This document shows positions 1 through 20,849 of a stretch of 64,000 nucleotides of DNA, one piece after another (position 1 is the first letter of the stretch; each line of letters starts with the position of its first letter). The position numbers and the translations under genes were made by a program. The stretch is taken from the NCBI RefSeq assembly GCF_007752535.1, contig NZ_CP036426.1, positions 2,232,001 to 2,296,000 on the forward strand. The letters are read 5' to 3'. The DNA is from Tautonia plasticadhaerens (GTDB lineage: Bacteria > Planctomycetota > Planctomycetia > Isosphaerales > Isosphaeraceae). Below the pieces are notes generated by a model. That model searched no databases. It saw only the letters and a program-made list of their open reading frames with translations, and had not been told where the DNA came from.

Positions 1-471
1 GGGCAGCTCGGGGTCGAGCTGGATCCGGGTGACGATGCCGTGGGCCAGGGACTGGGGCTCGCAGAAGTCCCGGACGTCCTCGACGACGGCGTTCAGGTCG
101 GCCGGCGCGAGATCCAGGCCGCCGACCCGGACCAGGCGGAGGAAGTCCTCCAGGAGCCCTTCGAGGCGGTGGGACTCCTTGCGGACGCGGTCGATCTTCT
201 GCAGGGCCCGGCGGTCCCGGTCGGACTGGGCGCCCCGGAAGTCCTCGGCCAGCAGGTCGAGGGTCAATCGCATGGTGGAGAGGGGATTGCGGATCTCGTG
301 GGCCAGCCCGCCGGCGAGCTGGGCGATCTCGGCGTACTGGTCGCGCAGGCGTTGCGCCTGGTCGGCGGGCAGGGGGGAGGAGGACTGGGGGGCGGATGCC
401 GGGTCGGGTCCGCCCTCGGCGGACGCGGACGAGAAGGCTTCGGTCACCTCGGCGGCGGAGGATCGGGCCAT
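1..471 (-). CDS. Sensor histidine kinase, N-terminal part (cut by window edge)
   Basis: The minus strand reads open from an ATG at 471 to the window edge, giving 157 residues of an incomplete protein. After a low-complexity N-terminus of about 35 residues there is a short helical stretch and then a HisKA dimerisation/phosphoacceptor segment with an H-box of the form LAHEIRNPLSTM; the phosphorylated histidine would be residue 58. The following helix (about 80-115) completes the helical hairpin, and the ATPase domain should lie beyond the edge. No membrane segment or PAS domain precedes the H-box, so this looks like a soluble kinase or one relying on a partner for input. It lies downstream of pnp on the same strand, 400 bp away, so co-transcription is uncertain. 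Confidence 0.85.
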   Translation of the reverse strand, partial: MARSSAAEVTEAFSSASAEGGPDPASAPQSSSPLPADQAQRLRDQYAEIAQLAGGLAHEIRNPLSTMRLTLDLLAEDFRGAQSDRDRRALQKIDRVRKESHRLEGLLEDFLRLVRVGGLDLAPADLNAVVEDVRDFCEPQSLAHGIVTRIQLDPELP

Positions 472-13844: not shown

Positions 13845-14504
13845 ATGATTCCCCCTCGACGATGCCGGAGGCCGCTGGCGGCGACGCTGGCCGCCCTGCT
13901 GCTGATGTCGGCCGTCGGCTGCGCCCGGTCCGGCCAGCTCCTGGCGTTGAATCCGCGGAGGAGCTCGATCCGGGAGCAGCTCAGCCGCCTGGAGTTCCAG
14001 AACCAGCAGCTCAGGGACGAGCTGAAGGTCGCCCGGGATGAGACCCAGAAGCTGGCCGGCGACCTGAGGCTCGCCGAGATCGACCGCCAGGATCTGCAAC
14101 GGAAGGTCGACAGCTACCGGACCCAGCTCGGCAGAGCGGGGCAGGGGGCCGGCGACCCGTACGAGCTGGCCCGCCCGGCCCCCGACCAGGAGGGCCCGGA
14201 GGCCCGGTCGACCCGGCCGGCCTCCCGACCCCCGAGCGCGGCGCCATTCACCCGGATCCCGAACCCGTCGACGATCGACGTCACGCCCCCCCCCGGCCCC
14301 TCGGCCGAGGGCTCCTTCGGCTTCGGCTCCCCCCGGTCCCCCTCCTACGAGGACCGGACTCGGCCGTACATCGAGCCCCCGCCGGTCCGGTACTTCGACC
14401 TCAGCCCCTCGGCCAGTCGGGCGGACGTCGGCCTCAGCTCCCGGGCGGGAGGCTCGAACTGGTCTCCCCTGGCCCGGGGTTCCGGGTCGAGCGCCCTGGA
14501 CTGA
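13845..14504 (+). CDS. Coiled-coil lipoprotein of unknown function
   Basis: The 219-residue product starts with a basic, hydrophobic signal ending in a lipobox (SAVGC, Cys at about 26), so it should be lipidated and anchored to a membrane from the outside. Residues about 40-95 form a charged coiled coil (LEFQNQQLRDELKVARDE and onward). The remainder is Pro/Ser/Arg-rich and predicted disordered. No enzyme motif is visible. A structural or tethering role is inference. It is the last gene of the plus-strand run that begins at aroK. Confidence 0.8.
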   Translation: MIPPRRCRRPLAATLAALLLMSAVGCARSGQLLALNPRRSSIREQLSRLEFQNQQLRDELKVARDETQKLAGDLRLAEIDRQDLQRKVDSYRTQLGRAGQGAGDPYELARPAPDQEGPEARSTRPASRPPSAAPFTRIPNPSTIDVTPPPGPSAEGSFGFGSPRSPSYEDRTRPYIEPPPVRYFDLSPSASRADVGLSSRAGGSNWSPLARGSGSSALD

Positions 14505-14712: not shown

Positions 14713-15531
14713 TCAGTTGCGGCGGCGCGGTCGGAGGCGGGCGGCGAGGCCGAGCGCGCCGATCCCGGCCAGGACGATCGACCCGGGCTCGGGGATGACG
14801 ACCGAGGCGGTCGGGGTGCCGACGCCGAGGTTATCGATAGAGCCGCTGAACTCTCGGCGTTCGTCGAGGGTCGGGAGGACGGAGATCATCGAGAGGCTGA
14901 CGAAGGAAAGCGTGTCGTCGGTGATGCTGCCGGGGAGGAGGAGAGTCTGGATCAGGGCGTCGTCGACGTAGAAGCCGACGGCCCGGGCGCCGAAGTCGAT
15001 CGACATCTTCAGGGTGAAGTACGAGCCCAGTCCGCCGGTCGTGGAGAAGGTGTCGCCGGAGGACACCGAGCCGACGATCGTGCCGTTGGAGGAGACGTAG
15101 ACGTCGGCGAGGAGGTCGAAGTCGTTGGCGAAGGCGGAGAGGTTGACGCTCACGGAGTCGTCGGCAGTCGTGCCGCCGGTGGAGCGATCGAGGCGGACGT
15201 CGGCGACGACGTCGATGACATCCATCCCGGGGGCGGCGGTGAACCCGATCGCCTTGTCGAAGGCCGAGAAATACAGGCCGCCGAGATCCTCCAGCCCGGC
15301 CCCCAGGATCTCGACCGCCTGGTCGCCGGAGGAGGGGTTCGAGGTGGAGACGATCCCGGCCCCCGGGCCAGCGATGGCGGAGAAGCCGTCCTGGCCGTCG
15401 AGCAGGCCGGCGGTGAACACGGGCTCCTCGAAGCCGGTCTCATAGAGGACCTCGGCCGCCGCGGGGGCGGCGGGGAGCGCGAGCAGGGCGGCGAGGGCGA
15501 GGAGCGGTGCGGGGCGTCGACGCGTCATCAT
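14713..15531 (-). CDS. PEP-CTERM protein
   Basis: The 272-residue secreted protein has an N-terminal signal peptide (about 1-26) and the classical PEP-CTERM tail: VIPEPGSIVLAGIGALG, a hydrophobic helix and a basic end (RLRPRRRN). Such tails are sorting signals processed by the exosortase system. The body is Gly/Ser/Asp-rich and looks like a beta-sandwich of the LamG/concanavalin type (LKMSIDFGARAVGFYVDD), but no catalytic motif is seen. The ATG at 15531 is preferred over a preceding TTG, with GGAG 8-9 nt upstream. No exosortase gene lies in this window. It is 173 bp beyond the stop of the two-lobed protease-like gene, on the same strand. Confidence 0.88.
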   Translation of the reverse strand: MMTRRRPAPLLALAALLALPAAPAAAEVLYETGFEEPVFTAGLLDGQDGFSAIAGPGAGIVSTSNPSSGDQAVEILGAGLEDLGGLYFSAFDKAIGFTAAPGMDVIDVVADVRLDRSTGGTTADDSVSVNLSAFANDFDLLADVYVSSNGTIVGSVSSGDTFSTTGGLGSYFTLKMSIDFGARAVGFYVDDALIQTLLLPGSITDDTLSFVSLSMISVLPTLDERREFSGSIDNLGVGTPTASVVIPEPGSIVLAGIGALGLAARLRPRRRN

Positions 15532-15704
15532 CAAAGTCTCCGTTGCGAGCGTCGTCGTCGACCGTCCGGCCGATCGGGTCGACGAGGGGGAGGGGGCCGG
15601 GGGGTCGGGCCGTCGGCGGCCCGGGGGTCGAGGGCCCCGGCCGGGCGGGGGAACGGCCCCCCGCCCTCGGGATCGGGATCGGGATCGGGGCGGCGGCGGG
15701 TCGG

Positions 15705-18700
15705 TCAGCGTCGGGTGAGCCGGAGCCGCTCGGCCAGGCCCCGGGGGTCAGCCGCTTCGGCCCGCCCGTCGAGGCTGGAGATCGGGGCTCGGGTCCGGGA
15801 GTCTCCCACCTGATTGGGGGTTCGCCGGGAGATCGGGGCCGTCGGGTCGGGGGCGGGGGGAGCTGGCCGGGGCCCGTCCCGGCCCTCGGCCCGGAGGGCC
15901 GGTCGATCGGCCGAGGCGGCGTCGATCGACTCCCGGTGTGGGACGCGGGCGGCGGGCCGAGAGGGGAGGGTCGGCCCGGCCCCGGCTCCGGCCCAGGGGC
16001 CGTTCGGGGACGTCGGCGTCGGGGTCGGCGACCCTCCGGGGAGGGTGAGCAGGCCTCCCCGGGCCCGATCGAGGAGGAATTCACCCCACCTGCGGTCGAG
16101 GCCCAGGGGGGCGGCGAGACCTCCCCGGGGGGTCGAAGCCGGGCCATCCCCGAGGAAGCCATCGCCCCCTCCGGAGGGGGAATCGAATTCGAGGCGGACC
16201 GCGTCGATCAGCGAGGTGCGGTCGCCCCCGAGGCGGTTGATGCCCACGAAGCCGATCGTGTGGATTCCGGCATCGAGGCTCAGCAGCAGCTCCACCTCCT
16301 GATACGACGCGCCGCCCGGCTCGACCCGGGCCACCTCCACCCCGTCGACCGTCACCGCGAAGTCATGCCCCGGGCCGAGCCGCGAGTTCACCCGCGCCGC
16401 CGCGCGGAAGCTGAGCCGGTAGACGCCCGACTCCGCCACCTCCACCGGCTGCGAGAACCGCCCGACCCGCTGCAGGAAGGCCACCTGGTCCCCCTCGGGC
16501 GCCGTCGGGTTGCCCGCCGTGAAGCCCGAGCCGTCGGCCGCCACCCCCGAGTCTCCCGTGAAGGACCACGGCGTCCCCGCCGGCCGGTAGATGAACGAGT
16601 TGAAGACGTCTTCCGGCCCGGCCTCGGGGGCCTCGAAGCCGCCCCCCAGCAGCGTCCCCGGTACGGCCCTCGCCAGGGACACCGCGTCGATCAGCGAGGT
16701 GCGGTCGCCCCCGAGGCGGTTGATCCCCTCGAAGCCGATCGCATGAGTCCCGGCTTCGAGCCGCAGCAGCAGTTCCACCGGCTGGTACGATGTGCCGGCC
16801 GGCTCGATCAGGGCCACCCGCACCCCGTCGACTGTCACCGCGAAGTCGTGACCGACTCCCCCCCGCGAATTGGCCCGCTGCGCCGCGCGGAAGCTGAGCC
16901 GGTAGACGCCCGACTCCGCCACCTCCACCGGCTGCGAGAACCGCCCGACCCGCTGCAGGAAGGCCACCTGGTCCCCCTCGGGCGCCGTCGGGTTGCCCGC
17001 CGTGAAGCCCGAGCCGTCGGCCGCCACCCCCGAGTCTCCCGTGAAGGACCACGGCGTCCCCGGCGGGCCCTCGATGAACGAGCCGAAGACGCCGGGCGGC
17101 CCGGCCTCCGGGGCCTCGAAGCCGTCGTCGATGAGCCGGGAGGCCCCCGGCTCCAGGTCGACCCGCTCGAACCGGCTGTGCGAGATCGGCAGATAGCCGG
17201 GGACGAGGATGGTCGAGCCGTCGTCGGTGGCCGGCAGGCCGTCGGGGATCAGCCGGAGTTCGTCGTCGTCGTCGGGGCCGCCGCCGTCGAGGGAGATCAG
17301 GACGGCGGTCGAGGGGGCGACGGCGAAGCGGTCGTCCCCCGGGCCGGTCGCGACGGAGAGGGATTCGAGGCCCGAGTGGGTGATCGTCAGCGGCAGGGTC
17401 GGGGGTTCGACGACCTCGTCGAACTCGGGGGTGAGGTTGAGGATCATCGTGCCGACGCCGTCGGCCGAGTCCCGGAAGTCGAAATAGACCTGGGAGAAGT
17501 AGCCGTCCCGGTCCGAGCCCGGCAGGCCGAGCAGCGGGGGGAGGACCTTCGCCGCCCAGCCGCTGGTGAGGAAGTCCATGCCGAAGACGCCGTCGATTCG
17601 GGGGCCGTCCTCGACCTCGATGTCCAGCACCCCGACGAGCAACTCGGTCCAGACCAGCTCGGCGCCGTCCTCGGTGGCGACCGCGGCCTGGTCGACGGCG
17701 ACCAGCGGGATCGAGGAGGTGCCGCCGATGCCGCCGACCTCGATGAAGTCCAGCGCCTCGTCGTCGAGGGTCCCGTTGCCGTTCTTGTCCAGGCCCAGCT
17801 CGATGGCGAGGTCCGTCGAGATGAGCGAGAGTTGGGCGCCGGTGTCCAGCAGGAACTCGCCGGTGGCGGCGTGGCCGTCGTCCCGGGCCTCGACGGTCAG
17901 GAAGGGCAGGGGGGCGAAGGTCGGCAGCGGGTCGTCGCCGACCCGGCCGTCGTGGGGGAAGTCGACGAGCCGCAGCGGGACGCTCCGGGGGTGTTCGAGG
18001 CCGTGGGGGAGCGCCCCGGAGAACTCGACGCCGATGGACAGATCTTCCGCTTCGAGCGGCTCGGACCAGCCGCTCATGTCCAGCTCGACGACCTTGTCGA
18101 CCATCGTCGGCATGCCGATGATGCCGAAGGGGCCGAGGAAGCTGAAGCTGACGCTGGAGCTGTAGAGCAGCCGGGCGTCGGGGATCGTGTTCCGGACGCC
18201 GCTCCGGCCGGCGTAGTCGAACCGGTACGGGGCCGAGACGTCCATCGGCGTGAAGCCGGAGACCCCCTGCTCGAGGTAGTCGCCGTCGTCGACGATCCCG
18301 TTCTCCTCCAGCTCCGAGGCGGCGAAGTCGACGATCAGCAGGCCCGTGGCCCCGGTGTCGAGCAGCAGTTGGTTGAGGAAGAACGGCCCGAGGCTCTGGT
18401 CGCCCGGGGGCCGGGCCTCGTCGATCACCTCGACGGTCACCAGGGGCTGCTGGATGGCGACGTTGTCCGACCGGCCGAGGAAGACCTCGTCCCGGGCGTC
18501 CCGGGGGTCGTCGTAGATGCGGAGCACCCCGTCGGTCACCTCGACGGCCTGGGGGACGTCCCCCTCCCCGACCACCTGGAGCGCGTCGACCCCGGCCCCC
18601 CCGCCGATCAACTCGACCTCGAGCGGCCGGCCCAGGCCGGCGATGTAGCGGTCGAGTCGCACCGTGTCGGCGCCGTCCTGCGAGACGTCGATCCCCAGGT

Positions 18701-19295
18701 GCTCGAAGTCGAGGAACGAGAGGGACTGGCCGGCGAAGGAGGCCCGGACGACCTTGAAGCCCTCGGCATTCCTCAGGCGTTGCAGGTCCAGGGTGTCGGC
18801 CTGCCCGGTCCCGAGCAGCGTGATCCGGTCGTCCCCGGTCGCCCCGGTGACGGAGAGGCTGGTCGGCAGGGAGGGATCGAGCCGCAGCGCCACGGCATCG
18901 GCCTCGCCCCCCGAGTCGCCCTCGGCGCCGGTGGCGACGGCGAGGGAGGAGACGGCCGAGAGCGGGGCGGCGACCACGCCCGGCCCCCGCGTGACGAGCC
19001 CCGAGCCGGCGACGGTCAGCGGCACCCCGGGCCCGGTCTCGGTGACGACGAGCCAGGTTTCGCTCCCGGCCCGTTCCACCTCGACGGACAGGTCGTTCGA
19101 CTCCCCGGCCGAGGCGGCCACCGTCAGGGCCCCCCCGGCGAGGGAGATCGCGGCCGGCAGCACGCGGGCCTCCAGCGGCAAAATCCCGGCCGTCGGCGGG
19201 ACGGGCGATCGCCTCCGGCCCCGTCGGGCGCGGCGGCGTCGGGGCGAGGGCGAGGGCGTTTGCATGGGCGGCTCGACTCCGAGTGCGAGGGCCAT
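15705..19295 (-). CDS. Secreted two-lobed aspartic-protease-like protein with duplicated beta-rich domain
   Basis: The 1196-residue product starts with a highly basic stretch and a degenerate LEPR-type motif (LPLEARVLPA, about 39-48). Two retropepsin/pepsin-type signatures are present: LLLDTGATGLLIV (Asp313) and FLLDTGAQLSLIS (Asp484). Each is followed about 80-90 residues later by a hydrophobic-Gly element (FGIIGMP and DGVFGMDF), as expected for two lobes of an aspartic protease. An upstream segment (about 60-280) is beta-rich. Residues about 717-1039 are two near-identical 161-residue modules with SFxxxPxGTPWSFTG and DQVAFLQ cores that resemble galactose-binding-like folds. The last 150 residues are Pro/Arg-rich. 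The ATG at 19295 has GGAG upstream; an in-frame GTG at 19412 and ATG at 19265 are alternatives. Proteolytic activity is inferred from motifs only. Confidence 0.8.
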   Translation of the reverse strand: MALALGVEPPMQTPSPSPRRRRARRGRRRSPVPPTAGILPLEARVLPAAISLAGGALTVAASAGESNDLSVEVERAGSETWLVVTETGPGVPLTVAGSGLVTRGPGVVAAPLSAVSSLAVATGAEGDSGGEADAVALRLDPSLPTSLSVTGATGDDRITLLGTGQADTLDLQRLRNAEGFKVVRASFAGQSLSFLDFEHLGIDVSQDGADTVRLDRYIAGLGRPLEVELIGGGAGVDALQVVGEGDVPQAVEVTDGVLRIYDDPRDARDEVFLGRSDNVAIQQPLVTVEVIDEARPPGDQSLGPFFLNQLLLDTGATGLLIVDFAASELEENGIVDDGDYLEQGVSGFTPMDVSAPYRFDYAGRSGVRNTIPDARLLYSSSVSFSFLGPFGIIGMPTMVDKVVELDMSGWSEPLEAEDLSIGVEFSGALPHGLEHPRSVPLRLVDFPHDGRVGDDPLPTFAPLPFLTVEARDDGHAATGEFLLDTGAQLSLISTDLAIELGLDKNGNGTLDDEALDFIEVGGIGGTSSIPLVAVDQAAVATEDGAELVWTELLVGVLDIEVEDGPRIDGVFGMDFLTSGWAAKVLPPLLGLPGSDRDGYFSQVYFDFRDSADGVGTMILNLTPEFDEVVEPPTLPLTITHSGLESLSVATGPGDDRFAVAPSTAVLISLDGGGPDDDDELRLIPDGLPATDDGSTILVPGYLPISHSRFERVDLEPGASRLIDDGFEAPEAGPPGVFGSFIEGPPGTPWSFTGDSGVAADGSGFTAGNPTAPEGDQVAFLQRVGRFSQPVEVAESGVYRLSFRAAQRANSRGGVGHDFAVTVDGVRVALIEPAGTSYQPVELLLRLEAGTHAIGFEGINRLGGDRTSLIDAVSLARAVPGTLLGGGFEAPEAGPEDVFNSFIYRPAGTPWSFTGDSGVAADGSGFTAGNPTAPEGDQVAFLQRVGRFSQPVEVAESGVYRLSFRAAARVNSRLGPGHDFAVTVDGVEVARVEPGGASYQEVELLLSLDAGIHTIGFVGINRLGGDRTSLIDAVRLEFDSPSGGGDGFLGDGPASTPRGGLAAPLGLDRRWGEFLLDRARGGLLTLPGGSPTPTPTSPNGPWAGAGAGPTLPSRPAARVPHRESIDAASADRPALRAEGRDGPRPAPPAPDPTAPISRRTPNQVGDSRTRAPISSLDGRAEAADPRGLAERLRLTRR
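16180..17145 (-). repeat. 483-bp tandem duplication inside the protease-like gene
   Basis: Two adjacent 483-bp units (about 16180-16662 and 16663-17145) encode the two 161-residue C-terminal modules. Within them, about 180 bp (16401-16578 against 16884-17061) look identical, and further blocks, for example from 16198 and 16681, match at the same 483-bp offset. The spacing is a whole number of codons, so gain or loss of a unit keeps the frame. Confidence 0.9.
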
Positions 19296-19662
19296 GGTGC
19301 GAGGTCTCCCTTCCCCGAGGCTCCCGAGGTCGGCGCGCGCCGATCGCTCCCGATCGGGCCGGGACCCGGGCCGCTCGGCCCGGCGCGGCGGGGGCCGATC
19401 GGCCTCGGCCACGCGGGGAGCCCTGAATCATTGATGAATGAACGTGAAGAACAGATGGGGACGTCCTGGCGACTCAATTGATACCGCCGCGGTCGGCCGA
19501 GGACAACCGAAAAAGCCGGACGCCGCGGAACTCGCCCGAGTCGGCCGCCGCCCCGGACTTCGGGACGGGCCCGGACGCCGAACCGAGACAGGGGGGGGAG
19601 GGTCGTGGTAGAGTGGGCCGCTTCGATCACGGGTCGCCACTTTCGGGGAAGGGCCGTCGCGG

Positions 19663-20268
19663 ATGATCGCGATCATCGACTACGGGATGGGGAACCTCAG
19701 GAGCGTGCAGAAGGCCCTGGAGGCGGTCGGCGAGCGGGCCGTCGTCACCGGGGACCCGGAGGGGGTCCGGGGGGCGGACAAGGTGATCCTGCCGGGCGTC
19801 GGCGCCTTCGAGGACGCGATGGCCGAGTTGCGTCGGACGGGCCTGGGCGAGGCCTTCGCCGAGGCCGTCTCGGCGGGGAAGCCCGCGCTGGGGGTCTGCC
19901 TGGGCTTGCAGTTGCTCTTCGACGAGAGCCTGGAAGGCGGCAGGCACCGGGGCCTCGGGCTGATCCCCGGCCGGGTCGTCCGGTTCGAGCCGGGGCCGGG
20001 GAGGAAGGTCCCGCACATGGGCTGGAACGAACTCCGGGTGCTCCGGCCGGCCCCGCTGCTGGCGGGCCTGGGCGCGTCCCCCTCGGTGTATTTCGTGCAC
20101 TCCTATTTCGTCCAGCCGGAGGACCCGGGCGTGGTCGCCGCCGAGGCCGACTACCCGGGGCCCTTCGCGGCGATGGTATGGCGGGACAACCTGATGGCCT
20201 GCCAGTTCCACCCCGAGAAGAGCCAGAAGGTCGGCCTGGCGATGTACCGGAACTTCGCGGAAATCTGA
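19663..20268 (+). CDS. hisH: Imidazole glycerol phosphate synthase, glutaminase subunit
   Basis: HisH hydrolyses glutamine and channels ammonia to HisF for imidazole ring closure in histidine synthesis. The 201-residue protein has the class I amidotransferase triad: nucleophile Cys79 in GVCLGLQLLF, and His183 and Glu185 in QFHPEKS. The oxyanion-region PGVGAF segment is also present. The length is normal for the family. hisA follows about 680 bp downstream on the same strand but is separated by an unrelated membrane-protein gene, and hisF is not in the window. The start ATG has only a weak purine stretch upstream. Confidence 0.97.
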   Translation: MIAIIDYGMGNLRSVQKALEAVGERAVVTGDPEGVRGADKVILPGVGAFEDAMAELRRTGLGEAFAEAVSAGKPALGVCLGLQLLFDESLEGGRHRGLGLIPGRVVRFEPGPGRKVPHMGWNELRVLRPAPLLAGLGASPSVYFVHSYFVQPEDPGVVAAEADYPGPFAAMVWRDNLMACQFHPEKSQKVGLAMYRNFAEI

Positions 20269-20309
20269 CGGGCGCACTCAGGGGGATTCCCCGCTGCTCG
20301 ATCGCCGAC

Positions 20310-20849
20310 TTGCTGATCCTGGTGGTGGTCGCCGCAATCAACGTCGCCCTCATTCGACAGGTCGTCACCGGGCCGGACAACGAGGAGATACTCGAAGCGG
20401 CAGGAGTCGTGGTGATGGCCAACGCCCTCGCGATCGGCCTGCGACGGGTCATTGGAGGAGGAGTGCGTCGTCACCCGTTCTCGACCGGCTTCACGGTCGC
20501 GGGAGTCGTCTCGGTCGTCTCCTTCCTCACCTGCGTCCGGGCCTTCGGATATCGGATGTCCGACGCATTCATCGAGATCCACCTTCCGGCTGTGTTTTCC
20601 CTCAGAGACAATGCGGTCCCTCCAGGGCTCCTGCGAGCCTTCCGGGAAGGCGGCGACTCCCTGCAGGTCGTCGGGAGCCTGGCCCATCTCCCGATCATGC
20701 TCGGCGTGCTTGCGCTCCCTCAACTGCTCAGCGCATCGATCGGCGGTTTCCTGGGTTGGGCGATGTCGTCCCGGTACTTCCGCGCGCATGGAGTACGGGC
20801 GGATGCAACCGACCGGATCGCCATACACGATCATGACAGGGCCGAGTGA
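20310..20849 (+). CDS. Four-helix membrane protein of unknown function
   Basis: This frame lies between hisH and hisA, begins at or just before a TTG at 20310 and gives about 179 residues. Four hydrophobic segments are visible, near the start (LLILVVVAAINVALI), at about 35-55, 65-85 and 135-160. The gene is clearly less GC-rich than its neighbours. No ATG or GTG lies at the expected N-terminus: the natural-looking start IPRCSIADLL begins with ATT at 20286, preceded by AGGGGG, so an ATT start giving 187 residues is possible. No family was recognised. Position and strand suggest co-transcription with hisH. Confidence 0.6.
   Translation: MLILVVVAAINVALIRQVVTGPDNEEILEAAGVVVMANALAIGLRRVIGGGVRRHPFSTGFTVAGVVSVVSFLTCVRAFGYRMSDAFIEIHLPAVFSLRDNAVPPGLLRAFREGGDSLQVVGSLAHLPIMLGVLALPQLLSASIGGFLGWAMSSRYFRAHGVRADATDRIAIHDHDRAE

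Follow-up and report, generated by a model that had tools for sequence, protein, structure and literature searches.

The gene and its two lobes

The window, a stretch of 64,000 nucleotides from Tautonia plasticadhaerens (contig NZ_CP036426.1, positions 2,232,001 to 2,296,000), carries on its minus strand a gene for a predicted exported protein of 1196 amino acids (aa) with a two-lobed aspartic protease core (window positions 15705..19295; all parts of the gene given below lie on the same strand). Read from its ATG, the frame encodes a single 1196-residue chain, as an earlier reading of the letters alone (the sequence-only reading) had proposed; with the GTG upstream of it at 19412 as start, the product would be 1235 aa long. 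An N-terminal region of ~200 aa precedes the core, which comprises lobe 1 (~aa 269–454; 17934..18491) and lobe 2 (~aa 455–629; 17409..17933), both of them present in an AlphaFold2 (AF2) model. A check against the profiles PF13650 and PF13975, which the sequence-only reading had suggested for both lobes, succeeded for one: Pfam places PF13650 on lobe 2 (37.1 bits, cut-off 24.3) and leaves lobe 1, which aligns to lobe 2 by hhalign, unmatched in the window protein. PF13975 scores 25.6 on the whole protein, below its cut-off of 28.2, and 29.9 on the core alone.

Each half carries the full retropepsin set in order, namely D-[TS]-G, a glycine-rich flap, and hydrophobic-hydrophobic-Gly. In lobe 1 these are the putative catalytic DTG (Asp313; 18351..18359), the flap tip GVSG at +31 (aa 344–347; 18255..18266) and GIIG(M) at +78 (aa 391–394; 18114..18125); in lobe 2 they are the putative catalytic DTG (Asp484; 17838..17846), the flap tip GIGG at +38 (aa 522–525; 17721..17732) and GVFG(M) at +85 (aa 569–572; 17580..17591), with both flap tips forming turns between predicted strands. 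The two LLDTGA motifs reported earlier are thus found, 171 residues apart, as are the FGIIGMP and DGVFGMDF elements said to follow them. A looser pattern, [LIVFM]2-D-[TS]-G-[AST], occurs at least twice in 10 of 20,000 shuffles of the protein, and conservation is a stronger argument against chance than these shuffle statistics.

Conservation of the catalytic motifs

Relatives were gathered by scanning a species-genome collection with two peptide patterns of lobe 2, derived from an alignment of six rows. This yielded 68 loci, a lower bound since the scan needs one of the two patterns; 47 of these loci exceed 100 bits when scored against the core. The alignment used throughout, A4, consists of the window protein and 47 relatives (48 rows), the loci L071–L091 (21 of the 68) being too distant and left out. 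One aligned relative, L064, begins inside lobe 1 at a contig end, and the lobe-1 Asp is therefore counted over 47 rows.

Across A4, all 47 rows that reach the lobe-1 motif (the window protein and 46 relatives) retain its Asp, Thr and Gly, and all 48 retain the lobe-2 D-T-G. Lobe 1 provides the cleaner test of conservation, because both scan patterns lie in lobe 2. Both lobes show the flap motif G-[VI]-[GAS]-G in every row (48/48), and likewise the final Gly of the hydrophobic-hydrophobic-Gly element; Ala occupies the position Asp+3 of lobe 2 in 47/48 rows. Both DTG motifs are present in L033, L047 and L050, in L033 with the form DTGG. Among whole proteins, D-[TS]-G was found in both lobes of 14/14 non-own proteins from a search of 248 relatives, and of 17/18 from a search of 392 genomes drawn evenly from the phylum, the exception, L110, being a weak match (E 9.8e-6) with one DTG lobe only. 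Free substitution of either Asp, by which the sequence-only reading would have fallen, is therefore not seen. Thr and Ser do alternate in distant proteins, with DSG in L015–L018, L093, L096 and L101; classical aspartic proteases use DTG or DSG (PMC6982040).

Predicted structure and family placement

The AF2 model of aa 260–660, built from A4, has a mean predicted local distance difference test score (pLDDT) of 91.8 and a predicted template-modelling score (pTM) of 0.88, and its predicted hairpins 77–85/88–95 and 257–263/266–281 (model numbering) turn at the glycine-rich motifs. VIA-align superposed the model on renin (5koq; Z 16.3, 257 residues, 3.7 Å, model 21..364), on 9iy9 from Bacteroides fragilis (Z 15.7, 247 residues, 3.9 Å), and on the tethered human immunodeficiency virus (HIV) proteases 2o40 (Z 15.3, 196/203 residues, 2.9 Å) and 3kt2 (Z 15.2, 188/198 residues, 2.7 Å, model 21..348); these Z values, apart by at most ~1, are near ties. 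The best 13 Foldseek matches are all single-chain HIV-1 protease dimers, themselves 198–203 residues long (best E 1.7e-10, for 1hvc, with a template-modelling score (TM-score) of 0.68 by target and 0.37 by query), followed by 9iy9 and then by many pepsins. As the superpositions span both lobes each time, whether on renin and pepsins or on tethered HIV dimers, the lobes appear to be placed as in a working aspartic protease, with the two DTG motifs facing each other, as the sequence-only reading had supposed.

Two lobes per chain, and renin at the top of the VIA-align Z values (16.3), could point to a genuine member of the pepsin family (A1) that came from a eukaryote. That origin is extremely unlikely, as the sequence matches lie elsewhere: PF13650 and PF13975 each match 48/48 rows at E <= 0.01 and the retroviral RVP profile 17/48, whereas pepsin's Pfam family (which we take to be PF00026) matches 0/48 at that threshold and gives no match to the window protein at E <= 1. 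Furthermore, the closest sequence in the PDB is DDI1 (2i1a; E 8.8e-5), a glycine-rich flap motif is found in both lobes, where pepsins have one flap, and planctomycete names stand on 44 of the 47 close relatives, counting Candidatus Kuenenia as presumably planctomycete; the other three are named Victivallales, Acidimicrobiales and 'bacterium'. The one flap of pepsins belongs to the N-lobe and carries Tyr75; in the alignment, lobe-1 column 81 is an aromatic residue, F or Y, in 45/48 rows.

Its sequence, together with a glycine-rich flap motif in both lobes, marks the core as of the retropepsin type and not a pepsin. It shares with pepsins a single two-lobed chain, one catalytic Asp per lobe and a predicted pepsin-like fold, and it differs from retropepsins, which are homodimers of one-domain chains, in having two units per chain. 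Because it is not a one-domain chain and the pepsin profile does not match, the protein is filed as neither; and because its two units share one chain, it is said to work like a retropepsin dimer, not to be a retropepsin. Its predicted mechanism is best described as that of a fused retropepsin dimer, a label chosen because PF13650 and DDI1 match, the pepsin family does not, and both lobes have the flap motif. A pepsin-like pro-segment seems unlikely in the family, since compact members leave little room between the signal or LEPR-like peptide and lobe 1, the core following closely upon a signal-like peptide in, for example, L012; in the window protein itself, ~200 aa of N-terminal sequence stand before the core.

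Relationship between the lobes

Profiles of the two lobes align by hhalign with an E of 1.5e-7 over 101 columns, spanning the DTG, the flap and the hydrophobic-Gly element. When the DTG stretches of both lobes were masked the register was kept, with a score of 25.0 (E 0.003); the highest score among 50 column shuffles of unmasked lobe 1 was 18.7. The lobes look like diverged copies, the evidence consisting mainly of functional motifs and fold.

Export signals and C-terminal modules

A LEPR-like motif, LEARVLPA (aa 41–48; 19152..19175), was recognised by eye as a putative export or surface signal, of the kind that we take to be labelled LEPR-XLL. It corresponds to the LEPR-like N-terminus of the sequence-only reading. 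Clearer forms stand just before the core in relatives, including LEPLEIRALLS (L028) and LEGRWLLS (L033), and no LEPR-XLL-type model is among the NCBIfam matches of the window protein. Rough motif patterns, which yield some false matches and miss some variants, found LEPR-like sequences in 18, PEP-CTERM in 14 and dockerin-like sequences in 18 of the 47 close relatives, with at least one of these in 36/47. Of 10 proteins scanned, 5 exceed the cut-off of Pfam Dockerin_1. L012, at 417 aa, comprises little besides the core, which has a signal-like N-terminus before it and a dockerin-like tail (Dockerin_1) after it. On these sequence features the window protein would be exported and probably located at the surface.

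Towards the C-terminus lie the two modules that the sequence-only reading had described as beta-rich, and both are real: module 1 (aa 722–882; 16650..17132) and module 2 (aa 883–1039; 16179..16649), 82% identical to it. Both look DUF642-like. DUF642 (PF04862) does not reach its cut-off in the window protein (24.5 vs 27 bits), and homologous modules on a subtilase of the same genome score 35.2 bits with PF04862. A structure model of the module from two rows is poor (pLDDT 56.4, pTM 0.56) and indicates only that it is beta-rich. At E < 1e-50 the module occurs in two proteins of the genome, the window protein and the subtilase; a further, weak match on another contig (E 5.5e-9) contains an internal stop. 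As the module is common to two predicted exported proteases, its distribution supports, and does not prove, a role in holding such proteases at their substrate or at the surface. The subtilase itself (L119, 361–6237, minus strand; 1958 aa; PF00082 198.8 bits) has three module copies, 62–63% identical, together with a PKD domain, and a LEDRRLLSG stretch near its N-terminus.

Proposed mechanism

Sequence and model together argue, with good confidence, that the gene encodes an active, exported and probably surface-attached single-chain aspartic endopeptidase of the retropepsin type, in effect a naturally fused retropepsin dimer. Duplication would have given two retropepsin-type units fused in one chain and facing each other. 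Asp313 and Asp484, meeting at the interface between the lobes, would be the catalytic pair that activates a water molecule, and the substrate cleft would be covered by two glycine-rich flaps, one per lobe. Since both units, the Asp pair and the flaps are in one chain, that chain would do the job of a retropepsin homodimer without dimerising, while the C-terminal modules would probably anchor the protein to matrix, cell surface or substrate. Catalysis, monomeric action, the flap role of the glycine-rich hairpins and the role of the modules are in this way what we infer for the protein. By analogy, activity near neutral pH would be expected because lobe 2 has Ala at Asp+3, following an argument made for renin and HIV protease (PMC2761423). 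Of what the sequence-only reading proposed, the pairing of two protease lobes within a chain is thus well supported, and the surface location that it considered is a deduction.

The same large modular architecture, with its putative binding modules, would also suit a surface protein without enzymatic function in which the two-lobed fold serves as a scaffold for binding, an option that the sequence-only reading had raised too. No activity is known for the family, the Foldseek matches include soybean basic 7S globulin, and pepsin-fold proteins inactivated by an Asp-to-Ser change in the C-domain have been described (PMC11313796). Nevertheless, the inactive pepsin-fold proteins so named have lost an Asp, whereas here the Asp and Gly of DTG are kept in every row that reaches them (47/47 in lobe 1, 48/48 in lobe 2), distant proteins exchange Thr only for Ser, and the flap motifs are invariant too, making a mere scaffold unlikely. 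A protease acting only on itself or on partner surface proteins, in their maturation or release and perhaps as a higher oligomer, is a further alternative, for which we see a very small chance. The core does lie between other domains of one long chain, each of the 15 matching genomes has one match, the own genome gave a single match to the family profile at E <= 1, and ASPRV1 is described as self-processing (PMC11402058); against this, the compact L012, at 417 aa, has little of itself to process.

Several observations weigh against an active fused dimer as set out above. The lobe-2 DTG conservation is partly a selection effect, the DTG lying inside the scan pattern, and the distant whole-protein matches were found mainly through lobe 2. 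With flaps as well as DTG masked, the lobe–lobe signal is lost (score 17.8, E 0.042, within the shuffle range). Whole-query Foldseek TM-scores are low (0.34–0.47 among the 50 matches listed), and the Asp313–Asp484 distance is taken from superposition, not from coordinates. The LEPR-like motif of the window protein is degenerate, and NCBIfam recognises no sorting signal in it. The distribution of the family is patchy: an in-frame match at E <= 1e-5 is found in 15 of the 248 relatives, own genome included, and in no other member of the genus (0 of 3 genomes). Finally, the open-access literature yielded no report of activity for any family member.

Comparison with known systems

Among the systems closest to the window protein are the tethered HIV-1 proteases (1hvc, 2o40, 3kt2), which also have two retropepsin units per chain. 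These are man-made with nearly identical halves, whereas the window core is natural, has longer lobes (DTG spacing 171) that have diverged, and sits inside a long protein. DDI1 and bacterial single-domain retropepsin-like enzymes such as RloA likewise have their DTG at an interface, with flaps covering the active site; RloA forms dimers of one-domain chains (PMC12239564), in contrast to the fused units here. A pepstatin-inhibited aspartic protease with one DTG has been described in Akkermansia (PMC6982040).

Single-chain bacterial proteins with two DTG motifs are not unprecedented. PDB entry 9iy9, an exported protein annotated 'putative endopeptidase', combines DTGAG and DTGNS in one bacterial chain; its sequence is hardly related to the planctomycete family (E 0.095), and no paper was found under its code in the open-access literature. 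The A1 pepsins, which include bacterial homologues, similarly have two lobes with one Asp each in a single chain, with Asp32 and Asp215 of pepsin 183 residues apart, compared with 171 in the window protein; the bacterial homologues have no predicted signal peptide (PMC2761423). The planctomycete family differs from A1 in matching PF13650 and not the pepsin Pfam family, and in the glycine-rich flap motif of each lobe. The sequence-only statement that two-lobed aspartic proteases are typical of eukaryotes is to be corrected in so far as bacterial cases, 9iy9 and the pepsin homologues, were already known.

A retropepsin-like dimer, duplicated and fused, is regarded as the ancestor of pepsin, whose present lobes have in common no motifs beyond those at the Asp and the hydrophobic-Gly element (PMC2761423). 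In the bacterial family the two fused units still resemble each other in the flap as well, and the protein may be similar to the kind of fused ancestor proposed for pepsins. We tentatively propose, at somewhat less than an even chance, a planctomycete family of naturally fused, exported retropepsin dimers with both flaps kept and the lobes diverged. Such a family would have arisen independently of pepsin, would still display the long-proposed fusion step in a living organism, and would have escaped notice since Pfam recognises its second lobe alone. The open-access literature yielded no paper on the family. The case illustrates how a database entry with one 'Asp_protease_2' domain can conceal half of an enzyme. 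With such a family the fusion hypothesis becomes testable biochemically, through monomer action, the exchange of lobes and the dispensability of one flap.

Distribution and distant relatives

In the even draw of the phylum, 19 of the 392 genomes, own included, match the family profile at E <= 1e-5. L002 holds a true relative in the proper frame, and the cultured planctomycete Rubripirellula obstinata carries a homologue at locus L066. Two D-[TS]-G motifs are present in 20 of the 21 distant loci L071–L091, where lobe 2 belongs to the scan pattern, the other locus, L082, lying at a contig end and showing one. L015–L018, L071 and L072 belong together as relatives whose first lobe has DSG and whose second has DTG, the two motifs being 212 residues apart in L071 and L072; immunoglobulin-like repeats follow the core in L016, the one member of this group scanned.

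Acetobacteraceae frames (L087, L089, L090) carry two DTG motifs 149 residues apart, and in L087 and L090 Pfam recognises two copies of PF13650. In these frames the lobe with DTGAQ is the N-terminal one, which seems to invert the order of the planctomycete proteins, and the fusion in this group may therefore be independent. At L005 (1345–3090; G000:C1, ~6.426–6.428 Mb), two adjacent genes each encode one PF13650 lobe and a PDZ domain, with VDTGA in the first and FDVGS in the second; their products might form an obligate heterodimer.

Neighbouring genes and overlapping frames

An antisense open reading frame on the plus strand (15507–19481, 1324 aa) covers the whole gene. It is probably an accompanying frame of high-GC DNA, being read as such because it is the minus frame that has the homologues. 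A minus-strand out-of-frame query also matched a relative out of frame.

No hint of a substrate was found among the neighbouring genes, and the nearby open frames 13845–14501 and 20268–20846 have no family match. On the plus strand, the gene is flanked on one side by genes for a shikimate kinase and a type IV leader peptidase, and on the other by those for a glutamine amidotransferase (hisH-like), a histidine-biosynthesis protein (hisA-like) and an elongation-factor-G-like product. A PEP-CTERM protein gene (14713–15534, minus strand) lies 170 bases downstream of the protease gene on the same strand, and the two are possibly co-transcribed.

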